From: a virus
Virus record (IMG/VR): IMGVR_UViG_3300034418_009680
Location: 1 to 33,905 of that record
DNA length: 33,905 bases
Reading direction: 5' to 3' (one strand)
Within the stretch, counting starts at the first letter, position 1; every line of letters begins with the position of its first letter. The translations under genes were made by a program, and so were the position numbers. The notes under the pieces are model-generated. The model was not told the origin of the DNA, searched no databases, and saw nothing but the letters and a program-made list of their open reading frames with translations. Shown here piece by piece: positions 6,001 to 23,767 of the stretch.

Positions 6001-7298
6001 AATACTTTGTCTCGTAAAAAAGAAGAGTTAGCTATATTTAATAATGTTTCGTTCAGTTCTCCTATATCATCAGCAAAGTTTTTATTGGTGAAAAAAGATA
6101 CAAAATTATTAGGAGCATTTGCAGGATCTCGTTGAGCATTTACTTCAACTATGAAATCAGGATCCGTTTTATTTATTTGTGTTTCATGCTTCGCATTGTG
6201 TTTCCATAACCACTTAGATTTATCTTCATTATAGACTTGATCTCTTTCAATTTGTGCAAGTGCAACATTTAAAGTTGTATCGCTAAGTTTTGTGACCTCT
6301 TTAATAGTTTTTACTATATGAGTAAATTTAACGTAGTTTAAAAGTCTATTTACAGTATCTCTTTTTGTTTGTATATACGCAATGTCTTGAGACGGTATAT
6401 TTGGATTTCCATTTATGACTTTATGAAGATTTAATGCTTCCTGTACTGCAGTAAAAACTCGATCAGTTGGATCAAGTTTTCTAGCTATTAAAAATTCTTC
6501 TATAGTTTGCGAACCTTGTTGTATAGGCGCTTTTATTCTTAAAGTTTCTATTCTCTCATCAAGAAACTCTACAATATGATCCAGTCCAGGTTTCTGTGGA
6601 ACAGAACCATCTCCAAAAGGATCCGCAAGTTGAGTTTCATGTTTTGCTACTATTCCTCGGGCACGAGTAACTACTTCTTCTGTAAATACTCTTTCTCTAA
6701 GACTTTGAAATCTATATACATTAAAAACTTCAACAAGTTCTGCAATTTCTTTAGGTATACGATTTTGTATATGAATTAGGTCTAACTGTTCATTAAAAAA
6801 TTCTACAATAAAATCAAAATCTGATTTTTCATCTTTTGTTGCATGACGAGCTATTAAATCAGGTAATCGCTTGCTTACTCGTTCTGCGGTAAATAAAAGT
6901 TCATTTTGAGTTTTGATTCGTGGGGTTACAACAGATTCATTAAATAATACATTATCTTGGGGCAAGCGCCTCATTAGATGAAAATACTCAAAATCTTCAT
7001 CTTCTAAAAATAATTCTTCAAATTCTGTTGCTAAAGCTACCGCGAGTTTGACCGTATCTTCTGCGGGTATTTCTTCAAAAAACTTTCTACGATAGTGAAC
7101 AATTCTCGAAAAGAAATCTTCTGTAGCAGCATTATTGGACAGCAAGAAAAATCTTAGAAGCTGTTCATGGGTAATTCTTATATCTAAAAAAGATAAATTA
7201 AACCCAAAAGCATCATCTATTTCTATTCCGGTGTCACTACTATCTTGTATTAATAGTGAACTGTCGGTTAGCGAAATGAATCGAAATTTTCCACTCAT
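3051..7298 (-). CDS. Large repeat-containing tail structural protein, 1415 aa
   Basis: I do not recognise the family. The N-terminal half is charged and helical with at least four degenerate repeats. The two clearest are residues 355-431 and 432-508: each starts V(Y/F).E(D/E), then WLWKH.AKH.T, a DF(I/V)VEVNAQRDPAN motif, and NNFVSFF. Weaker units lie at 134-176 (RHATK...FIVEF) and 204-252 (AKHETQ...HIVEF). A related KFFKNYH motif recurs near 518 and again about 430 residues later. The C-terminal third is rich in Tyr, Ser, Gly and Asn, as in fiber or adhesin domains, and ends SEAGKSANF. No signal peptide or membrane segment is seen. The start overlaps the end of the 122-residue gene by ATGA, so the two are translationally coupled. 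Location between BppU-like and fiber genes suggests a baseplate or fiber-attachment role, which is inference only. Confidence 0.75.
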   Translation of the reverse strand: MSGKFRFISLTDSSLLIQDSSDTGIEIDDAFGFNLSFLDIRITHEQLLRFFLLSNNAATEDFFSRIVHYRRKFFEEIPAEDTVKLAVALATEFEELFLEDEDFEYFHLMRRLPQDNVLFNESVVTPRIKTQNELLFTAERVSKRLPDLIARHATKDEKSDFDFIVEFFNEQLDLIHIQNRIPKEIAELVEVFNVYRFQSLRERVFTEEVVTRARGIVAKHETQLADPFGDGSVPQKPGLDHIVEFLDERIETLRIKAPIQQGSQTIEEFLIARKLDPTDRVFTAVQEALNLHKVINGNPNIPSQDIAYIQTKRDTVNRLLNYVKFTHIVKTIKEVTKLSDTTLNVALAQIERDQVYNEDKSKWLWKHNAKHETQINKTDPDFIVEVNAQRDPANAPNNFVSFFTNKNFADDIGELNETLLNIANSSFLRDKVFQEENLSWLWKHDAKHSTNTSGKSGLDFVVEVNAQRDPANLLNNFVSFFSVKGFNDDIGEANDLLLNVSKSSVAQDLIKTEAKPSKFFKNYHSTIKLLASGKTTEGREGHTADDVYEEDARTLKPGLGKKEIVSARELVLSGMSNQIFRELVDFEQINKRTLEINKTVPVEFVTDFQYSGSDARAPGTPRIRHSTSTGQKIVDPYYVKKYNEIYKYLRDPITGNLKYPTFASVGVSSFLIDGINTFTQPHADGRIIFQPDSKHREDYVLFDDGHNSLSGDFISLVGAEYKVLKPVWRGGSIGWGTLTRNYYPTRTAEGRRILFHRDMTAEDVRRAQVLTYTYNAEGQVTGSYYVQLNIQPTGKSIFEKLRDLGRLGGTFFRKLGIEYLFSSAEVNSVASNIAGTLPTVATDRVTATFYPVGQNPPGQPEDVRLKRSLGTRKDFVQIGGIDLNGDSLERIGKFFKNYHTIKVSQQSTNSTVDGSIGGAESNNTTAVSRKPIVADAPVSIYFDRSFVRSRRYPEAVGESDLILKSNLQPQNEEAHAQERSANHFSNSIKNNLYYFGKIAEGITGIPNSSARLNEEFISAKNKINESRAFIRQEFFGIKEFVEIREEDPDPLKLITKFDAAGNPIDLNTEQPSSRGVVRRFGDRLYASYSVLESRRTDQTYSYTSLNTYEIVNYIQDWQRAGYGPKIENTSTKYDRTYNYSKGYRWNGYSVARSYDDTPYYIYIPGSSASAYGFFWHSEQNQWVFVDGVGTFGSSLRVTSADTVGIDEENFFIESLTASDPSRPTGSHTIPDIENGGLINFSISFLSYIPQTGLTTTYFWQDLGKIVDILGGNVQYPTVVNGIPQSASNLRGKLLFATDGHLYVNLYNPSGLGGWPTSGTISTNLVGTPPGGTWSQVSYRTFTNLQPAPGEIINPVGVQAKNTSTDNTFYKRVMNYRRTHTETVEAADPGTAFIPVYCASYFLEPYVSEAGKSANF
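5775..6236 (-). repeat. Two tandem 77-codon repeats in the 1415-aa gene
   Basis: Two adjacent units of 77 codons (231 bases each, boundary about 6005/6006) encode parallel motifs: WLWKHNAKHETQ / WLWKHDAKHSTN, VEVNAQRDPAN in both, NNFVSFF in both and DDIGE(L/A)N in both. The shared heptad VNAQRDP is encoded by nearly the same bases in each copy, which indicates relatively recent duplication. More diverged relatives lie upstream in the gene at about 6543-6899. Confidence 0.8.
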
Positions 7299-7663
7299 GT
7301 ATAGTCATCCCGCACCTGTATAGTAATCTGCTCAAAAGTTGTGTAAGTGTCTGTTATTTGATTATTGTTTTCATCTACTCCTGATGGGACTACAAATTCT
7401 ACCTCTGCTTCGTAAAAATCATCATTTACGTCTACGTGAGTAAGAAAAGGTTTTAAATTAAAAACGTATTGACCTTGAGTATCTGTAGACTTAGCATCAT
7501 CCGCAGAAATACTAACTATATTTCCTGGAGTATCTTTTCGTCGAATATTTAAAAATACATTGGAAGCCTCTGTGACAAACCGATCATTATTCTCATTTCT
7601 GACAATAACTACAGTTAAATCAGGTCCCGTATCGTTTTTAACAAGTGTCACTAATCTATTCAT
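7295..7663 (-). CDS. BppU-like Ig-fold baseplate/fiber adaptor, 122 aa
   Basis: This short all-beta protein begins MNRLVTLVKNDTGPDLTV. Its layout of strands resembles the N-terminal Ig-like domain of phage baseplate upper proteins (BppU type): an initial NDTGP, a mid LNIRRKDTPGN, a GQYVFNL strand, a YEAEVEF strand and a final TFEQITIQVRDD. That resemblance is from memory of the family pattern and moderate at best. A domain of this kind usually links a fiber to the tail tip. It is the first gene after an exact-consensus promoter and its stop overlaps the ATG of the 1415-residue gene (ATGA). No clear Shine-Dalgarno precedes the ATG; the leader instead carries a 16-base palindrome. Confidence 0.7.
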   Translation of the reverse strand: MNRLVTLVKNDTGPDLTVVIVRNENNDRFVTEASNVFLNIRRKDTPGNIVSISADDAKSTDTQGQYVFNLKPFLTHVDVNDDFYEAEVEFVVPSGVDENNNQITDTYTTFEQITIQVRDDYT

Positions 7664-7677
7664 TGGAAGAGGGATAA

Positions 7678-7693
7678 CTTCTTAATTAAGAAG
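7678..7693. repeat. 16-base perfect palindrome in the leader of the 122-aa gene
   Basis: CTTCTTAATTAAGAAG reads the same on both strands. It lies between the promoter at 7720-7748 and the ATG at 7663, so it is in the transcribed leader. It could be an operator-like site or fold into a short hairpin near the ribosome binding region. On the plus strand it is followed by GGC and seven T, which would resemble a terminator for plus-strand transcripts, but no plus-strand gene is present. Confidence 0.55.
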
Positions 7694-7719
7694 GCTTTTT
7701 TTAAATATTCTATGGTATG

Positions 7720-7748
7720 ATTATAACAAAGCATACCTGCCTTGTCAA
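7720..7748 (-). promoter_or_regulatory. Exact-consensus sigma70 promoter
   Basis: On the minus strand TTGACA (7748-7743) is followed by a 17-base spacer and TATAAT (7725-7720), a 12 of 12 match with ideal spacing. Predicted transcription start is near 7713. It sits in the 114-base gap between the 74-residue gene and the 122-residue gene, one of very few gaps in the window, and points at the downstream fiber/baseplate genes. Confidence 0.85.
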
Positions 7749-7777
7749 GATATATTTTTGTAAGGGGTATATTGTAG

Positions 7778-8002
7778 TTAGGCAAATGCAATATCACATA
7801 CAGCGCGAACTTTCTCATCTTGCTGAGAATAGTCATCCTCTGCATGAATCACAAAGCGATGGAAAGAGGAAGAAAGTAACATACCGTCCTCTAAAACTTT
7901 TGTTTTTTGTCGTACTTGAACAGAGATTATGTCATTAAAAAACTCATCCTGAGTCTCTACAATTTCTATTCTATCTACTACGACTTCTTTTGTTAAAGCC
8001 AT
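7778..8002 (-). CDS. Conserved small phage protein of unknown function, 74 aa
   Basis: The product begins MALTKEVVVDRIEIVETQDE, continues with ISVQVRQKTKVLEDG, then SSSFHRFVIHAEDDYSQQDE and ends VRAVCDIAFA. I recognise this as a type of small protein common in marine phage tail-fiber neighbourhoods (pattern VD.IE...QVR..T.I.EDG...S.SFHR....DDYS.....V.A.C), but no function is known to me. It is predicted soluble with no membrane segment. AAGGAGAA lies 8 bases before the ATG in the 11-base gap after the 1227-residue fiber gene, giving a confident start. It might be a fiber chaperone or small structural part; that is speculation from position. Confidence 0.8.
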   Translation of the reverse strand: MALTKEVVVDRIEIVETQDEFFNDIISVQVRQKTKVLEDGMLLSSSFHRFVIHAEDDYSQQDEKVRAVCDIAFA

Positions 8003-8013
8003 TTTTGTTCTCC

Positions 8014-11000
8014 TTATGTAGTTTGATAGGTTATTCCAAAACTAATTATAGTATTAGAACCCAACATAGTTCCGGGCACGGCCGTTGCTGACCCTGATGC
8101 AACATTATAGAAAAGCGATATATTACTGAAACCTTGTATTCCATACGCATAAATACTAGCTCCCGAAATACTAGTAGCAGAGTTTGATATATATACAGGA
8201 GCAGTTGCTTTTCCATCAATTGTAAAAGGGAGGCCCGTAACTGTAATAACACTTGCACTAGTAGTCCCGGGAGTTCCCTGCACACTAACATGGACCATTT
8301 TTCCTACTTTTACGTACTTTTGAGTTCCTATAGAATTACCGGCAATACTACCCGTCCAAGTTCCTGTTTCTGCTATTTCTAAATCTGATTGTGGAACATT
8401 TTCAAAAACACTATTTCCACTATCATAAACAAGGACATCTCCTTGAGTTGCTCCAAGTATAGTTACATCTGTCAACCCCGCAAGAGTTTGTCCTGCACTT
8501 GGCTGATTTACCCAAGTAAAGTCTCCGGCGCCACTATTTGCAGTTCCATCCCAAGCTAAAATTTGCCCAGAAGTTGCACTAGAAGTGTTTAGCCCGTATG
8601 GTAAAACGATATCTACTTCGTTTCTAAACGCAGTTCCTGTAAGATCTAAATAACTAAAAGGAAGCTGTCTGCTTGCCCAGCTACTTCCGTCATAATATAA
8701 AACATCAAAGTTGGTCGCAGAATCAACTGTAGCAGCAACATTAGTTAAATTTCCTAATGTTCCTCCCGTAGGGGCTTGTGCTATCCATTTACTATCTATT
8801 GATCTATAAGTTAAAACATCTCCATCTGATCTACCCCCTAGCGCAGTGTCTACTAAATCAAAGGAGTATATTCCTTGAGGCTCCCACTCACTATTTGTTG
8901 CATCCCATTTTAGAAAATTATTAGTAAAAGGACTAGAATTAGAAACATCTCCTAAATCTCCTAAATTAAAAGTACTAAAAGCTTTATTTTGCCATTCTCC
9001 TGCCGTAGTGTCCCAAAGTAATAACTCGTTATCTGTATTGGGAGGATTAGGACTATATGCTACGTCGTTAAAAGTAGAAATACTTGGCTGAGCATTTATC
9101 CACCCGTTTGTAGGGCCGGTATAATAAAGATAGCTACCCGGCTGAATATTTGTTATTGTAGTGTCAGTAAGTCCCGCGACATCAAGAGTAGCTTGAACAT
9201 TTAAATTGCCTGTTCCTACTATAGAATTTCCATTAATTGTATATACATCTGTAAGGTAGCCAGCCCCATTAGTGAGCTGATTATTATTTGTAGGAATTGT
9301 AGGTAAATTTTGCAAGTCATTATAATTACCTGTGGTAGCAACAGTTGCAAAACTACCGGAAGTTAAATACCCCGCATCATTTGTTAGCTGACTAACATTT
9401 GTGGGAATAGTGGGTTTATTTGTTAAATCATTATAATTACCAGAAAAAAGTAAGCTAGTATTATCTGTTAGGTCGCTTACATCTGTGGGTACTTGTGCGC
9501 TAGTAATAAAGCCGGAATCATTAGTCAAATCACTAGTTTTTGTAGGAATAGTTGGTTTATTAATTAAGTCAGTGTAAGACCCCGAAGTTGCTACAGCATG
9601 AAGATTTGGCGTCCCATTTAAGTCACTATAATTACCAGTAGTTGCTACAGTGGCGAGACTAGTTGAAGTAACATAGCTTGCATCGTTATTTAAAACAGAA
9701 ACATTGTCTCCAGGTTGAACTGCAGAATCTGCTTTTGCTCCTTGGGCAGCAGTAGCTGCGTCCGTAATGCCGTAACCTGCTAAAGTTGTCGGAGTATTAA
9801 TTAAGTCAGAAAATGCTACTGATGAAGGACCCCAGTTTGTACCATCATACTTTAAAAATTTATTTGCAGTAGCACCGCTAGAAACATTTGTCAAGCTTTC
9901 TAGAGTATAATCAATATAGCTTAATTTTGTTCCATCATGTTGTAAAATTTGAGTATTTGAGCCTCCGGCTACTTTTAACCCTCCGGTTCCTATATCTGCA
10001 GCATTTGCAAAAAGCTCCCCCCATCTTTTAGCAGAACTACCTATATCATAGCTATTTGCTGTGGTAGGAATTAAATTCTCTTCGATTTCTCCATTAAAAG
10101 TAATTACATCCGTAGAAGAAGTTCCTAATAAAATATTTCCTCTTAAATGCGTAGAGCCATAAACTGATAGACCATCTGCAACTGTCCATTGAATATTAGA
10201 TTCCCACGCAGGTCCAGTACCTCCAGAACCATCGGGAAGTGAAGAAGCAATATTGTACTGAATTGCTGCAAATGCTCCATCTAGTGTGATACCTCCACCC
10301 TGAGCGGCTGCGGCATTTCCTGCTCCATCTGCAAGAACTATATTTTTATCGTCTACGGTCATAATGGTACTATTTACTTCGGTTGTAGTACCATCTACCT
10401 GTAAATTTCCTGCAATAACTACAGTACCTGTATCGTCTCCGTGAACTGCAGGATCAATTACAAAAATTTCAGGACCTCTTAGCCAGCCTCTTAACTCTAG
10501 ATTATTCATCTTTGAGTTAATATCTGTGCCGTCATAAGTAACAAAATCTCCGTTTTGCGGATCTCCTATAGCTACTTTTGTTAGACCATCAGTTGGATCG
10601 ACACCAAACCAAAAACCTGTACCTACCCCGTAGTCAGTCATTCCTCCTCGAATACTTCCTCCAGCAACATCAATTCCAGCATTTGGCCCGTTTATTGTAA
10701 TTCCATCGTTTGTTCCTGTTTCTGCTTGTTGTTGGGGATTTAAGTTTGAAACCGCACCTATAAAAGAACGGTTTAATATAAAATTTAAAATATAAGGAGG
10801 ACCGTCTGGGCCTCTAAAAACTTGTCCAAGAACACAGTCATTAGAATAATCAGGACGATATACAGCTCTATATGCTGCTTGCGTTTGTAGCTCAGTTTCA
10901 AAAGAGCGATCTAAAGTAACTTTACTATCACTATTGATTTCTATTACTTTAGCTCCTAGTCCTAAGTATTCATCGCTAATTACGCCAACAGGAAAAGTAA

Positions 11001-11697
11001 CAATATCATTAACTTTTAACGACTCTCTAAAACCCGAGCCTTCCATTACGCCATCAGTGCTTACAGCAACATTTCCAATACTAAGCCAGTTCGAACTATG
11101 GTCCATCGCCCTTGTACCATCGCCCATAAATCTCCAAAAAGGCAGCGTAGGCATTGCATGCTTATCCCATTCAACTAAATGAATAGTTCTAAATGCAGCT
11201 TGGAATAGTATATAAAGCTCTCGTGTATCATTCGGAACTACCCCGTCTAGTTGCACAACTTGAGGCTCTGATACTGTGATTGCACTTTGAGGATTTACTA
11301 TTGCGGACACATTAACCGGATAGCTTTCAAAAGTATAATCAAACTCATCAAAGTCCCCGGTAGGTTGAGGATTTAAAACTACCCCTTCATGAGTCCAGCC
11401 TTCGGGATATAGTTGTGCAATTAAATCTTTTAGAAAAGGCCAATTTATTAATCCTCTATATCTGCTTTCTACAGGAGTCCCTCCCGTATCTTCAGAATTT
11501 TGAGTTTCAGTAGCTCTAAAAGAATTAACTGTATCTGCATTAAAACTGGCATAAGCTCCTTTAGGCATCCCGTCATGAATACGGGGGCCTACAAGAGTGA
11601 ACTTTTGTCCATCCCTATTTATTCGTACTGTTTTAAATTCAGAATAGTTTCCTTTATGGGAAACACTTCGTACTTTAAATGTAATTTCTTCTGACAT
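8014..11697 (-). CDS. Tail fiber protein with tandem NKPTIPT-type repeats, 1227 aa
   Basis: The first 30 residues (EEITFKVRSVSHKGNYSEF...) look like the last strands of a fibronectin type III domain whose start is the C-terminus of the upstream gpJ homologue. The middle contains a motif set common in phage fibers (VDGTTTEVNST, VDDKNIVLADG, GGGITLDG), then a YDIGSSAKRWGEL motif shared with two other genes here. Next come four units built on Y.DL.(N/G).PTIPT and QLTNDAGYLT (about 9240-9700), then several 'LxYDGSSW' segments. The last 110 residues (GTWTGSIAG...SFGITYQTT) form a distinct beta tip domain, probably receptor-facing. The ATG overlaps the gpJ stop in TAATG, so translation is probably coupled. 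The domain order supports a trimeric side or central fiber; receptor unknown. Confidence 0.88.
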   Translation of the reverse strand: MSEEITFKVRSVSHKGNYSEFKTVRINRDGQKFTLVGPRIHDGMPKGAYASFNADTVNSFRATETQNSEDTGGTPVESRYRGLINWPFLKDLIAQLYPEGWTHEGVVLNPQPTGDFDEFDYTFESYPVNVSAIVNPQSAITVSEPQVVQLDGVVPNDTRELYILFQAAFRTIHLVEWDKHAMPTLPFWRFMGDGTRAMDHSSNWLSIGNVAVSTDGVMEGSGFRESLKVNDIVTFPVGVISDEYLGLGAKVIEINSDSKVTLDRSFETELQTQAAYRAVYRPDYSNDCVLGQVFRGPDGPPYILNFILNRSFIGAVSNLNPQQQAETGTNDGITINGPNAGIDVAGGSIRGGMTDYGVGTGFWFGVDPTDGLTKVAIGDPQNGDFVTYDGTDINSKMNNLELRGWLRGPEIFVIDPAVHGDDTGTVVIAGNLQVDGTTTEVNSTIMTVDDKNIVLADGAGNAAAAQGGGITLDGAFAAIQYNIASSLPDGSGGTGPAWESNIQWTVADGLSVYGSTHLRGNILLGTSSTDVITFNGEIEENLIPTTANSYDIGSSAKRWGELFANAADIGTGGLKVAGGSNTQILQHDGTKLSYIDYTLESLTNVSSGATANKFLKYDGTNWGPSSVAFSDLINTPTTLAGYGITDAATAAQGAKADSAVQPGDNVSVLNNDASYVTSTSLATVATTGNYSDLNGTPNLHAVATSGSYTDLINKPTIPTKTSDLTNDSGFITSAQVPTDVSDLTDNTSLLFSGNYNDLTNKPTIPTNVSQLTNDAGYLTSGSFATVATTGNYNDLQNLPTIPTNNNQLTNGAGYLTDVYTINGNSIVGTGNLNVQATLDVAGLTDTTITNIQPGSYLYYTGPTNGWINAQPSISTFNDVAYSPNPPNTDNELLLWDTTAGEWQNKAFSTFNLGDLGDVSNSSPFTNNFLKWDATNSEWEPQGIYSFDLVDTALGGRSDGDVLTYRSIDSKWIAQAPTGGTLGNLTNVAATVDSATNFDVLYYDGSSWASRQLPFSYLDLTGTAFRNEVDIVLPYGLNTSSATSGQILAWDGTANSGAGDFTWVNQPSAGQTLAGLTDVTILGATQGDVLVYDSGNSVFENVPQSDLEIAETGTWTGSIAGNSIGTQKYVKVGKMVHVSVQGTPGTTSASVITVTGLPFTIDGKATAPVYISNSATSISGASIYAYGIQGFSNISLFYNVASGSATAVPGTMLGSNTIISFGITYQTT
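9240..9700 (-). repeat. Degenerate tandem fiber repeats (Y.DL.NKPTIPT)
   Basis: Four units spaced roughly 100 to 130 bases apart encode NYSDLNGTPN, SYTDLINKPTIPT, NYNDLTNKPTIPT and NYNDLQNLPTIPT, each linked to a (Q/D)LTN(D/G).G(Y/F)(L/I)T segment. Several units also share ATVATTGNY. Such repeats are usual in fiber shafts and allow length change by recombination. Confidence 0.8.
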
Positions 11698-14600
11698 TAA
11701 TCAAACCCTGGAAAGTTTACTGACTTTTCTGTTGTAGTTACGGGAGATTCAGTTCCGTCTGCATTATGTACTATTTCAAAATGACTAATCCATTCATCAT
11801 TATCGGGCCTGTCCCAAGATAATAAAATTTCCGAAAACGGAGTAGCTTGAGGGCCTTCAAAAGACGCGTGTAAATTTTTAACAGAAGGAATAATTTCCGG
11901 CTCTTTTTCTGCATATGCACTAGGAGGTATAACTCCTAAATCATACTCGGCTTCTATTTCTGAGAATTTTTGGTTATAATGTTCTACTGCTGTTATAGCA
12001 AATATATTTTTAGACTCTCTTGCTATATCTAAGACTTTGTATAACTTACTAGATCCTAGCACTTCTGCTCCGTCTGAATTTATTTCTCTAATAGACCAAA
12101 TTATATTTGCTCTAGGAACTTTATCCAAACTACTAGCTAAATTAATATTAGCTGTTTTAACTGTGCCAGGATTAGTTATATCTACTTTTTGTACATAAGT
12201 TGCCGAGTGCCAAGACATTTGAAGTAGTATATCCCCCGTAGAGCTAGAAAACGCATTTGAAGCCTTGCTCTCACTGTTTAAACTTGTTAAAACATAGTCT
12301 TTGCCATTAAAAACATAAGCTTCGGGTACTCTATCATTAGTATTATAAGTTGTTCCATTTATAGAAATGGGCGCAGCTCCTGTATAAAAAGCAGCGGGTT
12401 CTGTAATTACTAAGTACATTTCATAATGACTTCCAGAATTAAAAGATATTTCTCTGTCTAAAACTAAAGAGTTAAGAGTTCCTCCGCTACTAAGTCTTCC
12501 TCCATATGAGACTCCGTATCGGTCTCCATCTTGCACTGTTATTACATCACCTGGCCGCACAAAAGCACTTCCAAAAGAAGAACTAAAGGTAACGACTTCT
12601 CTTTGATTTTGTGCAGTCCATAACTTCCATTTTCCCATTCGTATTGCTTGACTTTCTGAAGTACAGCCAAATGCAACTACTTCTTTTGTTCTAATTTGTC
12701 CTGTTTTTGCAATATCTGATTTATCTTCTATTAGTAGGGGTACTAACTCATAGCCGGCTTCGGGGTCATTCCAAGTTACAATTATCTGATTAAATTTTGT
12801 TTTCTCAGGGGTTCCTTCATAAGAAAAACGTCCATCAATAACATTAGCTTTTGTAAAATTATAAACAGGGTCGCTAGGAACATCTTGAACCAAACTTATC
12901 TGGCCATCTAGCCAATAAATTATAGAGGCAAAATTTGTTGCCATATCTTTTAATATTTTATAAATTTCCATTGGTTTGGTAAGAAGTACATTCATTCTAA
13001 ATCTTGGCTCTAATAATTCTGCAGTTCCTTCCAATGTACTGGGGGCCCCGTCTGAAGGCCGTATAAATCTAAATTCTGTACCTACGTTTCCATCAGGAGC
13101 ACCAAGACTTGTCCAAGGTATATTTCCTGTAGTTTTAATTCTATAAAACTCTCCTGTTTTAAAAGTGTACCAATCTGCAATTTTACCTGTTCCAACTAAT
13201 TCATCACAATATCTAGCAATTCTATACAATGAATATTTATCAATATCGAACTCAGAAATATATTGTCCTGCTCCATATCTATTATTTGTTACTATATCGT
13301 AAAAACACCATGCAGGATTATCTGTATAATACAGCACTTTTTTAAAATTACCGCCCCAAAAATTTTCATACTGTGCTTTACCTGTATAAGAATACTCCCG
13401 AGGAGTATAAGAATCTGGAATTTTGACAAGCATGCCTCGCATTTCATAAGTTCTTCTCGGAACTTTTTGATATTGTCTGGAACTAAAAATTGTATTTACT
13501 AGCGCTGTATATGGGTAAGTAAACTTATCTTTTATAATACACTGAATCTTACTAATTACTGAATCTGCAATTGTATAATAGTCTGTTTTATCACTTTCAT
13601 TTCCTGCAGATCTTCCACCGGCGTAGACGGGAAGTCCGGCACTTCGAGTTTGTCTAGCTATTTGCAAAACGAACGTATCAAAAGGTCTAAAGGTTTCTAA
13701 ATCTATAATATGCTCGAAAGAAATTCCGGCGCGTGTCCTTGCCCAGTGTCTGACAGCGTTTCCGAATAAATCAATCCAAGGTCCTGTAACTCCATTGGTT
13801 GTAAATTTTATTCTAAATTTGTATATAGCATAACAAGTTAGCAAACTACCATCCTCTTGGTTCATTGTATGCAGTCCTTGAGGATAAGTAATTATTACCG
13901 AAATTTGATCCATTTCGTTTATTTTTGCATTATTTGCAAAAGCACTAGAGGGAATCTCTGTAGGACCTGTATTAGCGTGATTTGTTATATCTAAACTAAC
14001 CAAACTATTTCTATTTACATATCCACTTTCTGGATCTGTATTAGGAAGTCCGTGTATATCATAAATTGTTATTGCTTCATTTGTATCTTTTCCATAATTT
14101 GACTGAGTGTGATTAGCTGGATTAGGCTCTAATATTTTTAAATCTGTTGTAAGTCCTCCAAGCTGCCCTTCAGTAACTACAGAGGCTCCCACAGTTCCTA
14201 CTTCAGATAAAGGATCTTGTACTAAATAACCTCTACGTTCCTGAGCGTATAGCCCTTCTATTTTATTAAAGTTACCTCCGATTCTCCACCCTTTAGACTG
14301 TCGATTATAGTAGTCTACCCAAGCTTGTTTTTCATCGGGTAACAAATAGCTTGGAGCATCTTCTATAGTAACTTCGTCTGGTAGTTCTATGACTGATTCT
14401 TGTTGAAAATTGAATTGAAGAGAACTTGTGATAGAAAATATATAATTTCCTGGATCGGGCTCATTTTCTGTTATAACTCTTTTGTTATCAGGAATACTGG
14501 CAAGGGCGAATTTTTTAGCAATAAATAGTTTGTACTTTAAAGGGTAAATTGCAACATAAGGATTTTTTGGCTCAAATACAAAAGTATTGCCGCTTGCTTC

Positions 14601-15194
14601 AACGGTTTGACCACTCATAACACTGCCAGCATCTCCAGCTACTAAAAATGCTCGAGCATTTTCGTCATTTAAAGTAACCCACCTAGTTATATCTCCACTC
14701 AAGGGGTCTGCGGCAGTGGCAGTAATTCTTACTTGATTATTTGCGTCTCTTACCGTAGACGTAATATCTAGGTCATCCAGATACAAATAATCAAACAAAA
14801 TTATGCTTTTTCCTATTGCATAATAATCACCAGTACTAGTATCAATCATATAGTCTGGTAAAGTTGCTCCGTTTCCTAAAGTGCCCGTTTTAGCAGAAAA
14901 TGCTATCCTAGTACTTGGGTCTATAGCGGATCCAAGTACTCCTTGAGGAGGAATATATCCTAGATATTTGGAGTCTTTTACGGGGACATCGTCAAAATAA
15001 ATTGACCCTGTTCCATTTACCAAACCTGCTATAGGGCCTTCGCAAATAGCATCCGTAATAGAAATATTTTGTACAGTTGTGCCTGATCCGGTTTGAGTAA
15101 ATACTCTCTCTGTTTGATTTACATTACCGGAATTACCAGGATTTTGATTTCCCCCGCGTACTCCGCCGCCGCGGCCCACTGCTTCGTTTGCCAT
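11697..15194 (-). CDS. J: gpJ-like tail tip / host specificity protein, 1165 aa
   Basis: This is the homologue of lambda gpJ, the central tail-tip protein that closes the tube and contacts the receptor. The N-terminus carries the typical Gly/Asn-rich lead-in followed by ISITDAICEGPIAGL and SIYFDDVPVKD, a gpJ hallmark. Length (1165 versus 1132 in lambda, from memory) fits. Middle segments (PWCFYDIVTNNRYG, PMEIYKILKDMATNFAS, RPGDVITVQDGD) match the tail-hub domains of the family. The C-terminal 60 residues (SVKNLHASF...ILLSWDRPDND...HFEIVH) look like the first strands of an FN3 domain that stops at NFPGFD. The stop overlaps the next ATG in TAATG, and the next protein begins with what looks like the rest of that domain. 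It follows gpI by a 17-base gap containing AAGGGA. Confidence 0.92.
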   Translation of the reverse strand: MANEAVGRGGGVRGGNQNPGNSGNVNQTERVFTQTGSGTTVQNISITDAICEGPIAGLVNGTGSIYFDDVPVKDSKYLGYIPPQGVLGSAIDPSTRIAFSAKTGTLGNGATLPDYMIDTSTGDYYAIGKSIILFDYLYLDDLDITSTVRDANNQVRITATAADPLSGDITRWVTLNDENARAFLVAGDAGSVMSGQTVEASGNTFVFEPKNPYVAIYPLKYKLFIAKKFALASIPDNKRVITENEPDPGNYIFSITSSLQFNFQQESVIELPDEVTIEDAPSYLLPDEKQAWVDYYNRQSKGWRIGGNFNKIEGLYAQERRGYLVQDPLSEVGTVGASVVTEGQLGGLTTDLKILEPNPANHTQSNYGKDTNEAITIYDIHGLPNTDPESGYVNRNSLVSLDITNHANTGPTEIPSSAFANNAKINEMDQISVIITYPQGLHTMNQEDGSLLTCYAIYKFRIKFTTNGVTGPWIDLFGNAVRHWARTRAGISFEHIIDLETFRPFDTFVLQIARQTRSAGLPVYAGGRSAGNESDKTDYYTIADSVISKIQCIIKDKFTYPYTALVNTIFSSRQYQKVPRRTYEMRGMLVKIPDSYTPREYSYTGKAQYENFWGGNFKKVLYYTDNPAWCFYDIVTNNRYGAGQYISEFDIDKYSLYRIARYCDELVGTGKIADWYTFKTGEFYRIKTTGNIPWTSLGAPDGNVGTEFRFIRPSDGAPSTLEGTAELLEPRFRMNVLLTKPMEIYKILKDMATNFASIIYWLDGQISLVQDVPSDPVYNFTKANVIDGRFSYEGTPEKTKFNQIIVTWNDPEAGYELVPLLIEDKSDIAKTGQIRTKEVVAFGCTSESQAIRMGKWKLWTAQNQREVVTFSSSFGSAFVRPGDVITVQDGDRYGVSYGGRLSSGGTLNSLVLDREISFNSGSHYEMYLVITEPAAFYTGAAPISINGTTYNTNDRVPEAYVFNGKDYVLTSLNSESKASNAFSSSTGDILLQMSWHSATYVQKVDITNPGTVKTANINLASSLDKVPRANIIWSIREINSDGAEVLGSSKLYKVLDIARESKNIFAITAVEHYNQKFSEIEAEYDLGVIPPSAYAEKEPEIIPSVKNLHASFEGPQATPFSEILLSWDRPDNDEWISHFEIVHNADGTESPVTTTEKSVNFPGFD

Positions 15195-16045: not shown

Positions 16046-16727
16046 ATCTATAAATTCCTACAATCGTTGGTGCCCATCTCGGGAACAAAGATTCTCTACA
16101 AGAAAGACGATGTACTGCATGATGAAAAAACATATCTTTACCTATATAAACTCCACAATGATTTGGTACATCTGACTCCATTTGAAAAATTAAAACATCA
16201 TTTATTTGTAAATCTTTTGAGTCTACAGGTTTTCCTCCCCATTGCTTTGCCATTTCGTCGGTAAAATAATTTAAATCTTTCTTCTTCCACCAACCTTCTT
16301 CAAATAAAGCTCTAGGAGGTATCTCTATATTTTGAGTTTTTAAATAATCCCGAATAGCTTCAAAACAGTCCATTACTCCAAATTTGTATTCTCTGCCTAT
16401 TAAAGGAAATGCTTTCACAGTTGGCTCTACTATATTTAAGTTCATTTCTGAATCAAAAATATAGTAAGGTATCCCTGTAGCGTTACATCCATTTATATCA
16501 GATTCACTAGGCTCATTACTAGTATTTATGTGATTATGGACTATTCCCAAAATATCTGCTTTTTTAATTACATTCAAGTAATCTTTAGAGCACATTATAA
16601 AATCTTGATCGTTTTCAGCAATATTTTTACAAGGAAACCATTCTTTTTTTCCTTCAACAATTCCTATGATTCCACAACCTTCTTTAGGATACTCTCTTTC
16701 AAAGTGTGCTTGTATTTCATCTATCAT
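16035..16727 (-). CDS. K: gpK-like tail tip hydrolase: JAMM plus NlpC/P60 domains, 230 aa
   Basis: The N-terminal 100 residues are a JAB/MPN domain with a complete JAMM metal site: Glu16, then His64-x-His66, Ser74 and Asp77 in the spacing HxH-x7-S-x2-D. Residues 110-230 are an NlpC/P60 peptidase with Cys121 in MDCF, His190 in NHCGVYIG and a following His-rich strand FFHHAVHR. Both active sites thus look intact. In the lambda family this tail-tip protein is thought to cleave peptidoglycan cross-links during entry or to process tail proteins. The ATG overlaps the gpL stop (ATGA), and its 3' end overlaps gpI. Length is close to lambda gpK (199 residues). Confidence 0.93.
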   Translation of the reverse strand: MIDEIQAHFEREYPKEGCGIIGIVEGKKEWFPCKNIAENDQDFIMCSKDYLNVIKKADILGIVHNHINTSNEPSESDINGCNATGIPYYIFDSEMNLNIVEPTVKAFPLIGREYKFGVMDCFEAIRDYLKTQNIEIPPRALFEEGWWKKKDLNYFTDEMAKQWGGKPVDSKDLQINDVLIFQMESDVPNHCGVYIGKDMFFHHAVHRLSCRESLFPRWAPTIVGIYRYDA

Positions 16728-19462
16728 TTAAATTTATTAGTTCCTATAAATCCACCAAAAGGAAGAGGCAAATAACTATCCAAAGTTCCGGGAACACTAG
16801 TTGCTTGGAATCTAACCTTACATGAGTTTACTCGTTTTCCACAAACATCTATTCTTTTCCAAACTCCCCTTTGGGTGTCAGGATTTCTACCCTTATTTGG
16901 ATTTGTTGCCTCCCAAATTCTTATATATCCATCTCCATTATACCCGTCCGTAAAACTTATTTCAGTACCTTTTAATATAGGCCCTTGAAATGCAGCATCA
17001 AATGTAATCTTATACTCATAACTTAAAACAGTGTTACCTGACGTCATGCCGGGGGTAATTGTAACATTGGTTACAAGTCCTGGAGACCCTAGAGTACTAG
17101 GTATTAAATAATAATTATTTATTTCTGCGAGTATTTGGGCAGCATCATCAGATTCCATCCATTCTCTATTGTACGCAATATATAAATCTGTATCTCCTGC
17201 AGCTGCATTTCGAACGACTTTACTGCTATATATCGTAGGAATATACACCGCACTTGCTCCAGTAATAGTTTTTACTCTATCTCCTTCTACATAGGAAGTT
17301 GTAGAACTCCAATCTGGAAGTGTTGCAGCACCTACTATCAGCTCATCATTTTCATCAAAAAATAAATTACCTCTACTATTTAAAGGAAAGGTGCAGCCTC
17401 CTTGACCATTTTCATAAAATCCTTGGTATTTCCAAGGGCAGTATTTACCAATAACATATCTATTGGGTAGTCTAAACCCTTCCATATCTAAAGGACTGGC
17501 CAACTCTAGGCTCATTAAAGGCCCCGCTTCTGTAGCCACTCTATTTACATAAAAAGACGCTTTTGGAAATTCTGTTGGGCGCTCTGGAACTTGATTCGCA
17601 TTATATGTGTACTTTAATAGGGTAGTCCTGTAAGTTACTTTACTACCTACCAAATCTTGAGATGTAAAAATACCCTCCGCTTCTAAAATATTTATAAGGA
17701 GTTGTTCGTCTCGAGTACCGTCGCCATCATTTACAAGAGTTCTTGCAATTCCCGGTATATTTGCTAAAGTTAGGGTAGGCCTTGACGAAGCTCCGCTACT
17801 TTTAACATCTATTCCCTCTATCATTATAGGCATAGCTATGTATTCATTTAAAACAGATCCTATAGAATCTGGAAAATATATATTGTCTAAAGAACTATCG
17901 TCGAATCCATTGTACAAAAATGCTGTATTTCCTGAAGGCAATTGAATTTCAAATAACTCAATAAAATTATCTCCAATTTCTTGCTCTTGTACTACTTCTA
18001 TTAACTCTAACTCGCCATCCTTTTGAACGTATCCGCTAATAGTCCAAGTATAAGTTTGAGAGGGGCTAAAACCAGGATTAGAATCTGACCTGAACTTAAC
18101 TTCAAATGTTGCCTCTTCTGTACTATTGAGAAAAGTAATATCAAAATAAGTAACAGTTGTGCCTGTTAAAGGAGAAACATCTGCGTTGGTTGTACTTATG
18201 ACATCTATTGTTCTATAAGGATCGGCATCATCATTTTCTAAAATTACTCTAATTACATCTTTTTTGTATACTAAAAAATCAGGATAATTTAAAATATCAG
18301 GAGTTAATCTTAGAGAATATACCGAAGGTCTACCAGTATTTTCATCATCTGCTCCCCCAGGTGGAAATGCTGAAATAGCTAAAGAATTACTAGTAATTGT
18401 CTCTAGGTACCCATCCCCGTCTGTAAAACTAATAGTTAAAGATAAAGAAGTTCCTAAATCATAAGCAACTGTTGTATATGTAGTTGCATTGGCTCCTGTA
18501 ATAGGATACCCATTTCTATTCCATTGATATTCAAAAGTGCCTAGTCCATTTGAATCTGCAATAGTTTCAGTATGAGAAAATTCAAATCCAAATCCTACTT
18601 GGTTTCCATCAATTGTAACTGTACCAGTTGCAGGACTATTTGGGGGCACATATACTTCTACATCAAAATCAATTTCATCCAAGAAAGTAGGCTGTCCTCC
18701 TGTAGTAGAAGCAGAAGCAGTCCCATTAACAAATTGTGGAGTAGTATTATAATGATGCAGCCTTATATAATATTTTCCCGCAGGACAAGATGCGGTTGGC
18801 TGTATATTGACACCAGTAGTAGTACCTGTTATTTGTACTTGTCCACTTGTAGCTACAAAATAAGTAGGATCAATTAAAGTGTTTGATCCTGATGCATCTA
18901 CAATTCTCCATTGAAAAGTTTCTGAACTAGCTACAGGAGTATCATAAGTATACCCATCAGGATGAGTCCGACCGGACCAAGAACCTGTTACATACGGAAT
19001 AAGAGAGCTTGGTGTTGATATAGAAAGACTACCAGTAGTTCCGGTAGTAATAGTCGTACCAGCGGAGGCCCCATCCCAGCCAAATGTAGGAGGAAGCCAT
19101 AAAATTCTAAAAGATTTCTGAGCAAAAGTAGTTAGAGTATTGCCAGTAGTAGCTGCCGTAAAAAAATACCATCTAGCATAGTGATCATTATTATCAAAAT
19201 TTTGATTAGTCCAAGTTTTATCTTTTTCATTATGATCTAGCCACGGAGTATCCGGATCAGGATCATTTATTTCTTCATCGCTATTCGGATATCGTATATA
19301 TCGTATTTCTTTAACAATAGAACCTTCGCTTCCAGTGTATTCTGTTTGCGCATTAATAGTATCTCCAACCTTTGCAATAATTGCATAATTGTCGGAAATA
19401 TCTGCGGTCTCTGGTACGTACCCGGGACTATTTAATTGAAAGTAGTAATCAAATACACTCAT
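16724..19462 (-). CDS. L: gpL-like tail tip protein with large Ig-like N-terminal extension, 912 aa
   Basis: Residues about 495-912 match lambda gpL: (L)FEIQLPSGN at the start, SSRPTLTLANI near 560, then NRYVIGKYCPWKYQG and a C-terminal CGKRVNSCKVRF followed by LPFGGFIGTNKF. The four Cys (675, 690, 874, 881) correspond to those that hold an iron-sulfur cluster in lambda gpL. Two features are unusual. First, residues 1-490 are an extra Ser/Thr/Gly-rich beta region with Ig-like strand patterns (for example FEYQWNRNGYPITGANATTYT near 310-330). Second, about 180 residues separate the two Cys pairs, including WSSTTSYVEGDRVK (718-731), which resembles a chitin-binding type 3 (CBM5/12) motif. The start overlaps the gpM stop (ATGA). 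It bridges gpM and gpJ in the tail tip; the extensions probably decorate it. Confidence 0.88.
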   Translation of the reverse strand: MSVFDYYFQLNSPGYVPETADISDNYAIIAKVGDTINAQTEYTGSEGSIVKEIRYIRYPNSDEEINDPDPDTPWLDHNEKDKTWTNQNFDNNDHYARWYFFTAATTGNTLTTFAQKSFRILWLPPTFGWDGASAGTTITTGTTGSLSISTPSSLIPYVTGSWSGRTHPDGYTYDTPVASSETFQWRIVDASGSNTLIDPTYFVATSGQVQITGTTTGVNIQPTASCPAGKYYIRLHHYNTTPQFVNGTASASTTGGQPTFLDEIDFDVEVYVPPNSPATGTVTIDGNQVGFGFEFSHTETIADSNGLGTFEYQWNRNGYPITGANATTYTTVAYDLGTSLSLTISFTDGDGYLETITSNSLAISAFPPGGADDENTGRPSVYSLRLTPDILNYPDFLVYKKDVIRVILENDDADPYRTIDVISTTNADVSPLTGTTVTYFDITFLNSTEEATFEVKFRSDSNPGFSPSQTYTWTISGYVQKDGELELIEVVQEQEIGDNFIELFEIQLPSGNTAFLYNGFDDSSLDNIYFPDSIGSVLNEYIAMPIMIEGIDVKSSGASSRPTLTLANIPGIARTLVNDGDGTRDEQLLINILEAEGIFTSQDLVGSKVTYRTTLLKYTYNANQVPERPTEFPKASFYVNRVATEAGPLMSLELASPLDMEGFRLPNRYVIGKYCPWKYQGFYENGQGGCTFPLNSRGNLFFDENDELIVGAATLPDWSSTTSYVEGDRVKTITGASAVYIPTIYSSKVVRNAAAGDTDLYIAYNREWMESDDAAQILAEINNYYLIPSTLGSPGLVTNVTITPGMTSGNTVLSYEYKITFDAAFQGPILKGTEISFTDGYNGDGYIRIWEATNPNKGRNPDTQRGVWKRIDVCGKRVNSCKVRFQATSVPGTLDSYLPLPFGGFIGTNKFK

Positions 19463-19996: not shown

Positions 19997-22900
19997 TTAA
20001 TTGTCTTCAAGAGCTGCGATAGCTGCTTGAAAAGCCCCATAATCTGGAGAAGCCGCTGCAATTTCTTTTAACTTTGCCGTAGAAATAAGTCGTGTAGAAG
20101 TACTTGGTGCGCCTCCTGCTTGGTGTTGAGCTACTTTTATATTTCCACTATCAGAGTAAATTGTATTATCTGATAGATATAAATGCCTTATTTTATATTC
20201 GGCAGATCCTAAATCATATTGAGCATTTGTGTCAGGAATTAAACTCCCTGACATTCCTAGCGCTGGAAGATTACCTGTTAAAGCAGATGCGTCTATAGTA
20301 GTGCCTGATTTAATTATTTGGGTAACTTCCGAAATTGGAGACCTTTTTAAATTAAAAGTATATACGTATACATTTGCAGCAGGAACTGTGTCAACAGGAA
20401 TTTCCCAATCATAAAAATAGTCATCACTTCCTCCATAATTCACTCCTGTAAAAGTAGCAGGACCTGTCGCTTTCAAGACTGTGTTTGCAGGGAAGTTACC
20501 ACTAGCATCAGTTTCGCTAGATATTGTTGCACCTGTTAGCAATTCAAAAGAATCGTCTTTTTTAATTGCTCCAAATTTTTGATTGAAAGGAGATTCTGTA
20601 GGAGCGCCAGGTCCGTCAGTTCGTATAACTAATTTATTTCCTGTTTGCCAATCTACATAAGAGACTCCCCCTGTGCCTTCTCCTCCAAAATCCATGGTTT
20701 CACCAAGAACAAGCTGTCCTGATGCATCTGTACTCAACGTTTGGTCGCCCATAAAAATGGTATTATTATCTAAGTACAAATATCTCCACTTGCGCTCAGC
20801 ACTTCCTAAATCATACGCTACATTTGTTGTAGGAAGAAAGTGAGCATCTAGTTGTAGTTCATTACTCGAGCCAAAATCTAACGTACTGGTGCCGTCTGTA
20901 ATACTAGAAGGAGTACTTGAGCTTCCTCCACTACCTACATCAGTTGTATAAATTGTGCCTGCCATTGCAGAGTAATTTTCGTCTACATAATACAGAGTAG
21001 ACGGGGCATCTAAAGGTACAGTAAATGAAACTCTGCCTTTGTCCGCTCCATTGTTTGTTACTCCATCAGAAGTTCCTAAAGCATTTGCGGCATTATATGC
21101 GCCTGAAGAACTTTGAATATAAAATGGGTGTCCACTACTTAACTCAAAGTTTGAAACATCAATATAAGCTTCCGTAGAATCTCCTGAGTTATTTCCTAAA
21201 TCATTTACTCCTAAAAGGCCTACCCATCTATATTGACCTGTAGTTGTAAAGGTATAGCTATATGAACTAGTAGCAATTAAGTAACCTTCACTATTTTGTG
21301 GGTATCCGCGATAAAATCCACCATTTGTTATATCGACTAACCAAAACTGTGCACGTACTTCTTTTTCACTAGGTCTTTCATGATACCTAGTAGTATCCCA
21401 ACTAAGTTTATATCCTTCTTTTACATTAAAAGCAGGAGAAACGGCATAAGCTTTTCTATACCAGTTATTAGTTAGCAAAAAGTAAGTTTTTGTGTATAAT
21501 CTTAAATAATTTCCTGCTCCTGTGGCTGTAAATACGTATACACCTTGAGTAGTAGTTTGTGAGTTTCCTTCAAACTGTGTATCTGTATGAGCTTGTGCCG
21601 GAAAACTTTGCCCATTTACACTATCGGCAGAAGTAATATAATTACTACTTGCTAACGTCCATCCATCATTAGAAGTAATAGGCGCTAAACTATCAAAATC
21701 ACCTGGATCAAAGTAGTAAGTTATACCTTTTTGTAGATATAGATCGGGATTTGTTCTTGCAACAGGAAATCCTGCGCCTGAAAAAGAAAAAGCAGAAGGA
21801 GTTCCACTAGTATACGAAGGCTCAATATCAAATACTATTGAACTTGCGCCATCTGCACCGTCAGCTCCATCTACACCGTCTACCCCTCGTAAATCACCCG
21901 TGGTAAAACCTAATCCATCATTAGATGTGAAGGTTACTGTACCGGTGCTGAGATCGTAGGAGCCTCCCGTAAATCCAGTTCCGTCTACTCCATTAGTTCC
22001 ATTTATACCATCGGCTCCATCTGCACCATCGGCTCCAGCAGGTCCAGTAGGTCCAGTAGGTCCAGTAGCTCCTGTAGGACCAGTAGGACCTTGAGGACCT
22101 ACTACTGTTCCGGCATTAATTGTTGTGCTATCTGCAAGAGTAAGAATTAAATCATCATTTGCATCTACTGTAGCGGAAGAAATACCTCTATTTCCATCTC
22201 CTCTTAGATCTCCCGTAGTAAAACCTAATCCATCATCAGATGTAAAAGATACAATACCTGTTGAAGCAGTATAACTGCCTCCTGTGAAACCTAATCCATC
22301 TGCCCCTGCAGGCCCCGTTGCTCCAGTTAATCCAGTAGCTCCAGTTGGTCCAACTACTGCTCCTGCATTAATTGTTGTGTTATCTACAAGAGTAAGAATT
22401 AGATCATCATTTGCATCTACTGTAGCTGAAGAAATACCTCTATTTCCGTCGCCACGTAAATCTGCAGTATTAAACCCTAATCCATCATCAGATGTAAAAG
22501 ATACAATACCTGTGGAAGCAGTATAACTGCCTCCAGTAAAGCCTAATCCTTGATTTCCTTGAGGCCCAGTTAATCCCACAGGTCCAGCAGGTCCTTGTGC
22601 ACCATCTGCGCCATCTGCGCCTTGAGGTCCTTGTGGCCCCGTTGGTCCTTGAATTCCTGTGGCTCCAGTTGCTCCGACCGGTCCAGCCGGTCCAGCGGGT
22701 CCGGTATTCCCCGTATCTCCTTTTTCCCCTTGAGGGCCTGCAGGTCCTTGAGCGCCTGTTGCACCTTGTGGTCCATCATTGCCTACGGGCCCTGTTGGTC
22801 CAATAGGCCCTTGAGGTCCTTGTGGGCCAGTATTTCCTATTGGTCCTGTAGGTCCAGCAGGTCCTGTGGCTCCAATGGGACCAGTAGGTCCAGTAGGCCC

Positions 22901-23767
22901 AGCGGGTCCGGTAGCTCCAGTATCACCTGTATCTCCTTGGGGACCATCATTGCCTATAGGCCCAGCGGGTCCTTGAGGACCTTGTGGTCCGGTAGGTCCT
23001 GTGTTTCCTATTGGTCCAGTAGGTCCAGCGGGTCCGGTAGCTCCGGTAGGCCCAGCGGGTCCAGCGGGTCCAGCAGGTCCAGCGGGTCCTGTATCTCCAG
23101 TATCTCCTTGGGGTCCATCATTGCCTATGGGACCTTGCGGTCCTGCAGGGCCTGTTAATCCAATAGGTCCGGCGGGTCCGGCGGGTCCTACAGGACCTGT
23201 AGGGCCTTGTGGTCCTGTTAGTCCTTGTGGTCCTTCCGGCCCCTCTGCTCCATCATTTCCAGTGGGACCTTGAGGTCCTGCGGGTCCGGTAGGTCCAGTT
23301 ACAGAAGCTCCAGCAGGACCAGTTGCTCCAGTTGCTCCAGTATCACCTTTATCTCCTTGTGGTCCTTGAGGTCCAGTAGGTCCGGCAGGGCCTTGAGGTC
23401 CTGTTAATCCAATTGGGCCATCATCTCCCTTATCCCCTTGAGGACCGACAGGGCCGGTAGCTCCAATAGGGCCTTGTGGTCCAGTTGTTCCTATACCAAT
23501 AGGCCCTTGTGGTCCTTGTGGTCCTTGTGGCCCTTGTGGTCCTTGTGGCCCCGTTGGTCCAGCTACTCCTGAGCCTCCTGCGGCACCTGTAGGGCCTTGT
23601 GGTCCTGCACTACCTGTATCTCCCTTCAATCCTGTGGGACCGGTAATTACCCATTGCTGCGTATTGCCATCATCATAATAGATGTACATACGAAGATTTA
23701 CGTCATCAAACCATAAATCTCCATTGCTTGGATTAGAGGGCGCTGTTGCTGAAACTATTGCTGCCAT
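19997..23767 (-). CDS. Collagen-like (Gly-X-Y) tail fiber protein, 1256 aa
   Basis: Residues 1-42 form a small N-terminal module ([20 protein letters not shown]). Residues 43-408 are about 120 Gly-X-Y triplets, rich in GPQ, GPT, GPA and GDT, with few interruptions, so a long collagen triple helix is expected. Then come two close copies and one partial copy of a beta cassette starting GFTGGSY and ending DLRG, separated by short GXY linkers (to about 640). Residues 645-940 form a globular region with [18 protein letters not shown]. The C-terminal part has two YDLGS motifs (near 985 and 1185) shared with other fiber genes, and ends with a helical [25 protein letters not shown]. The gene abuts the tape measure gene (TAAATG) and precedes gpM. 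The product is probably a long trimeric fiber attached at the tail tip; receptor and attachment point are inferred. Confidence 0.9.
22073..22549 (-). repeat. Direct repeat of a 75-codon beta cassette, period 252 bases
   Basis: Copy 1 (22549-22325) and copy 2 (22297-22073) encode nearly identical cassettes: [18 protein letters not shown], then [20 protein letters not shown] and LILTL.D.TTINAG.VVGP. Differences are few (NTAD/TTGD, VDNTT/ADSTT, AGAV/AGTV). A third, shortened copy lies at about 21878-21979 ([18 protein letters not shown]). Confidence 0.9.
22544..23641 (-). repeat. Collagen triplet repeat region
   Basis: About 366 codons of near-continuous Gly-X-Y. On the plus strand this appears as a long run of variants of GGTCCAGTAGGTCCTGTTGG. 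Longer sub-blocks recur, for example [16 protein letters not shown] twice and [17 protein letters not shown] near the start, which suggests slippage or recombination within the array. Confidence 0.9.

Follow-up and report, generated by a model that had tools for sequence, protein, structure and literature searches.

The window analysed here, the whole 33,905-nucleotide stretch of IMG/VR virus record IMGVR_UViG_3300034418_009680, carries on its minus strand a gene for a gpJ-like tail-tip or baseplate hub protein of 1165 amino acids (11697..15194) and, next to it, a gene for a central-fibre protein of 1227 amino acids (8014..11697, minus strand). The hub protein is homologous to gpJ, with matches to PHROG 31 (E 2e-118) and Pfam Phage-tail_3 (E 7.5e-22). 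Upstream of it lie, in order, matches to Phage_tail_L, Prok-JAB plus NLPC_P60, and PHROG 32, the set of tail proteins L, K and I that also neighbours gpJ in lambda. The gpL-like gene of the window (16724-19462, minus strand) encodes 912 amino acids with the L domain near residues 539-706, while lambda gpL has about 232 residues and is far shorter. Between an M-like minor tail protein and the gene for a 1267-aa product is a gene (19997-23767, minus strand) for a 1256-aa protein with eight collagen-repeat stretches.

The gpJ-like protein ends in ...EKSVNFPGFD, followed by TAA, and the fibre protein, whose N-terminus is MSEEITFKVRSVSHKGNYSEF, starts from the ATG of the same TAATG (11695..11699, minus strand), so that the stop of one gene and the start of the other have one A in common and the overlap is 1 nt. 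A Shine-Dalgarno-like AGGG lies within gpJ (11706..11709, minus strand), 8 nt 5' of the fibre ATG, and relatives have AGGA or AAAGGA at this site. Because short overlaps are common among the genes of the window (7 of the 18 neighbouring pairs in its gene list), the TAATG by itself is ordinary.

The initial annotation had read a fibronectin type III (FN3) domain as divided between gpJ and the 1227-aa fibre, and sequence profiles bear this out. With the Pfam fn3 model the gpJ part alone scored 14.5 bits, the fibre part alone gave no match, and the two joined scored 19.4 bits, below the PF00041 cut-off of 25 bits. The fused relatives tested fell short of it too, with 17.9 bits or no match to fn3 at all, so this sequence model is insensitive here and decides nothing alone, and a dedicated profile HMM of the FN3 and head domains was therefore made from 52 fused relatives in which the domain is unbroken. 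Window gpJ matches positions 1-102 of this profile (E 2e-25), the match stopping at the final gpJ residue, and the fibre, starting at about the fourth residue, matches positions 109-169 (E 8e-8). These matches abut without overlapping, as they do in L004, L010 and L011. GpJ ends inside an FN3 domain, and the fibre begins with the missing strands. The profile up to position 102, together with the AlphaFold strands of the gpJ fragment and of the fused relative L041, places strands A, B, C, C' and E, which make up the N-terminal portion, in gpJ residues 1102-1165 (11700..11891, minus strand). Strands F and G (EEITFKVRSVS...GNYSEFKTVRI), placed by the profile from position 109 onward, occupy fibre residues 1-32 (11602..11697, minus strand), and these are followed by a fibre head domain (10798..11601, minus strand) that alignments identify as homologous to the post-FN3 region of fused J proteins.

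In the AlphaFold model of fused L041 the strands fall at residues 38-46 (A), 52-59 (B), 67-74 (C), 85-87 (C'), 91-96 (E), 101-110 (F) and 119-124 (G), with pLDDT of about 88-96 across the FN3 domain. Residues 28-127 of this model match lambda gpJ 613-713 with a Z score of 11.3, and they also match FN3 chains at a Z of about 11, so the uncut domain has the FN3 fold. The uncut domain of the relatives likewise falls on lambda gpJ 612-713 (AlphaFold/VIA), and judging from domain order we take it as the domain that PMC10721106 names FNIII-1 in gpJ. By alignment, the window is cut in the EF loop, at L041 residues 97-100. The AlphaFold model of window gpJ residues 740-1165 is of moderate quality, with a mean pLDDT of 64 and values of about 71-84 through most of the FN3 region, and matches lambda gpJ 416-684 (Z 9.9, rmsd 9.5 over 256 residues). 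Its final residue is the equivalent of lambda gpJ 684, and therefore about 29 residues, comprising strands F and G, are absent from gpJ and are carried by the next gene. The objection that the gpJ C-terminus might be a complete domain alone is not borne out, since it is modelled as an incomplete FN3 domain.

Removal of the eight bases TAATGTCA would put gpJ and the fibre in one frame, as the initial annotation claimed, and on the strength of such an 8-base difference the split could be taken for an indel that sequencing or assembly had introduced into a fused gene that is really intact. However, the identical TAATG junction is present in 12 other IMG/VR contigs from several metagenomes, with gpJ identities of 100, 87 and 65%, and the reading frames on both sides of the junction are under purifying selection, so that we regard an indel as excluded. 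Homologues with a single fused protein were also found: among the J relatives distinct at 90%, a sample made up of the best 80 matches of each scan and not a census, 81 of 101 are fused. In an IQ-TREE phylogeny of 66 J cores the group split at the EF loop is one clade (support 100/100), which is nested with fused J proteins in a set supported 100/99. Because many relatives are fused and the split clade lies among fused J proteins, fission of a fused ancestor would be the simplest reading, and the earlier proposal of an ancestral J-fibre fusion split at TAATG is in this respect strongly supported. In the collection scanned, searches with the fibre N-terminus hit only the 12 contigs with the identical junction; all 12 loci adjoin the same J type, and no fibre start lies beside an unrelated J protein. 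A DNA search of deposited phages had no hit for the junction and turned up no isolate from the clade of the window. A protein search with gpJ gave identities of about 31% or below among the best 40 matches, with no close deposited relative.

As the relatives mostly carry fused chains, it could be argued that a fused J-fibre chain is still produced here, wholly or in part, by frameshifting or by bypass of the TAATG. A second observation might be taken in the same sense. Fibre codons 1-14 (11656-11697, minus strand) are nearly unchanged at synonymous sites, with 12 of 13 identical as against about half elsewhere, and this holds between clades whose gpJ proteins are only 65% identical. Such near-identity fits an initiation region; alternatively, it may mark a recoding signal or a joint left by recombination. 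A TGA just upstream in the required frame would, however, leave a one-codon window for recoding, there is no slippery heptamer, and the RNA structure is not exceptional (z between -0.9 and 0.5 for the window and L010, and -1.9 for L004). The SD-like site 8 nt before the fibre ATG also counts against recoding, and the relative frame of the two genes differs among the other lineages with a split FN3, one of which has a 16-nt gap. A programmed frameshift was rejected, as the overlap has neither a slippery site nor a stimulatory RNA structure, and we consider recoding in any form very improbable.

Selection on the two halves was compared using a Nei-Gojobori script against L010 and L011, which represent the 65% clade. 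Fibre residues 1-32 have a dN/dS of 0.03-0.04, a value based on small codon numbers that points to strong purifying selection. For gpJ 40-1068 the value is 0.15-0.18 and for the fibre head about 0.26-0.28, so that within the fibre the tightest constraint measured is on residues 1-32. Their F-G motif, RxVSxxGNxS, keeps residues that are nearly invariant in fused FN3 domains. The gpJ half of the domain evolves faster, with 50% identity to L010 and L011 versus 67% for the rest of gpJ, and this lower conservation would suit a history in which the FN3 domain was lost, the gpJ remnant and the fibre N-terminus now packing elsewhere, for instance on neighbouring subunits, while other surfaces attach the fibre. 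Against this, when the two halves are stitched together the FN3 core is hydrophobic at 16-17 of 19 positions (fused relatives average 94%, background 31%). As the core is kept in both halves, each retains the character of a piece of a single folded FN3 domain. Given this and the motif retained at the start of the fibre, two independent half-domains seem unlikely. A single FN3 domain formed jointly by the two chains would fit both the kept core and the conserved fibre start.

We consider it probable that an ancestral one-chain gpJ was split in the EF loop of its FN3 domain and that two coupled chains now rebuild an FN3 joint that anchors the fibre. The ancestor would have held hub, FN3, head and central fibre in one gpJ-type chain. 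This chain would have been broken when its first C-terminal FN3 underwent a small change in the EF loop, and the break would have become fixed as the stop/start TAATG. Ribosomes ending gpJ may restart there, or initiate anew at the SD-like AGGG, and the fibre would in either case be made in step with gpJ. The gpJ C-terminus, consisting of strands A-E, would expose an unfinished beta-sandwich, which the fibre N-terminus would complete by bringing strands F and G. With three such non-covalent FN3 joints in each tail tip, the fibre trimer would be fastened to the trimer of gpJ.

The same FN3 domain is also cut between J and the next gene in other lineages, on other branches of the J tree than the window. 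In a well-supported clade separate from the EF-split clade (L021, L022, L095, L103, L187, L195 and L196), the cut lies in the AB loop; J ends after strand A, and the next gene starts at strand B, so that the fibre has strands B-G. L256, on another branch, likewise has J cut after strand A, here with a 16-nt gap between the genes, and is probably a third split event, its branch being only moderately supported in the phylogeny. The reading-frame relation between J and the next gene varies among these FN3-split lineages. A Pelagibacter phage, HTVC103P (L259), encodes a structural protein (6707-8533) similar to the post-FN3 region of the L021 fibre; the phage was followed up for this match to the L021 fibre head and rejected, as its genes stand in a different context. 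In L014, L037, L039, L041, L051, L070 and L081 the break in J lies elsewhere, between the head domain and the GGxIKGG collar, and TAATG has been used several times at these breaks too.

In the Synechococcus isolate S-CBS4, J (gp039) ends after a segment resembling strand A, and a TAATG starts a 131-aa protein (gp040) that resembles the remaining FN3; at least 21 metagenomic relatives in IMG/VR have the same 1-nt overlap, as TAATG or TGATG. An hhalign comparison of the 131-aa family with the fused FN3 gave a probability of 92.5 and an E value of 5e-7, with the register of strand B uncertain. S-CBS4-like cyanophages thus probably split the same FN3 domain, a strong lead in which the strand register is uncertain. 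This family of about 131 amino acids, found at 6611-7006 in S-CBS4 (L260) and in L264-L295, is conserved directly downstream of J in cyanosiphophages; it is annotated as hypothetical in S-CBS4 and resembles an FN3 domain without its first strand or strands. The partner of J in S-CBS4 is this small protein, whereas in the window it is a long fibre. The FN3 domain has been cut on no fewer than two occasions, in the EF loop and in the AB loop, and probably on more.

The gpJ protein of lambda (PDB 8iyk, 8k35, 8xci) has the hub fold and an FN3 domain at the same position (612-713, with FNIII-2 as its second FN3) as the window protein, and in lambda a single chain comprises the hub, the FN3 domains, the central fibre and the receptor-binding tip (PMC10721106). 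The window chain, on the other hand, ends inside FNIII-1, and does not unite a complete FNIII-1 with the fibre. Phage T5 resembles the window in having a two-chain hub and fibre, since its BHP pb3 and its central fibre pb4 are distinct chains that connect at FN3 domains (PMC10038345). The border in T5, however, has a complete FN3 domain on either side, the two being in contact through loops, whereas that of the window runs inside one domain, at the EF loop. Reassembly of FN3 fragments without a covalent link is described for engineered split monobodies in PMC11666773, which cites Dutta et al. 2005; those proteins are engineered and cut in the CD loop, while the arrangement in the window is natural and cut in the EF loop. 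Full-text searches of literature open without subscription turned up no account of gene fission in phage tails or of a J protein whose FN3 domain is divided internally. While gpJ and other hub-central fibre systems are known, what is new here is a recurrent split inside a domain and not between domains.

The way in which hub and central fibre are joined determines both the opening of the tail upon receptor binding and the exchange of fibres between phages. A cut within a folding unit, made at different loops, is unusual, and it predicts a defined interface that can be tested; the cultured phage S-CBS4 is a likely experimental case. It is conceivable, though somewhat short of probable, that independent splits at different loops have arisen in the first C-terminal FN3 of the hub in several siphophage lineages, and that this domain serves as a reusable snap-joint based on strand complementation. 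If so, fibres would be exchangeable as separate genes while a precise fit to the hub is kept.
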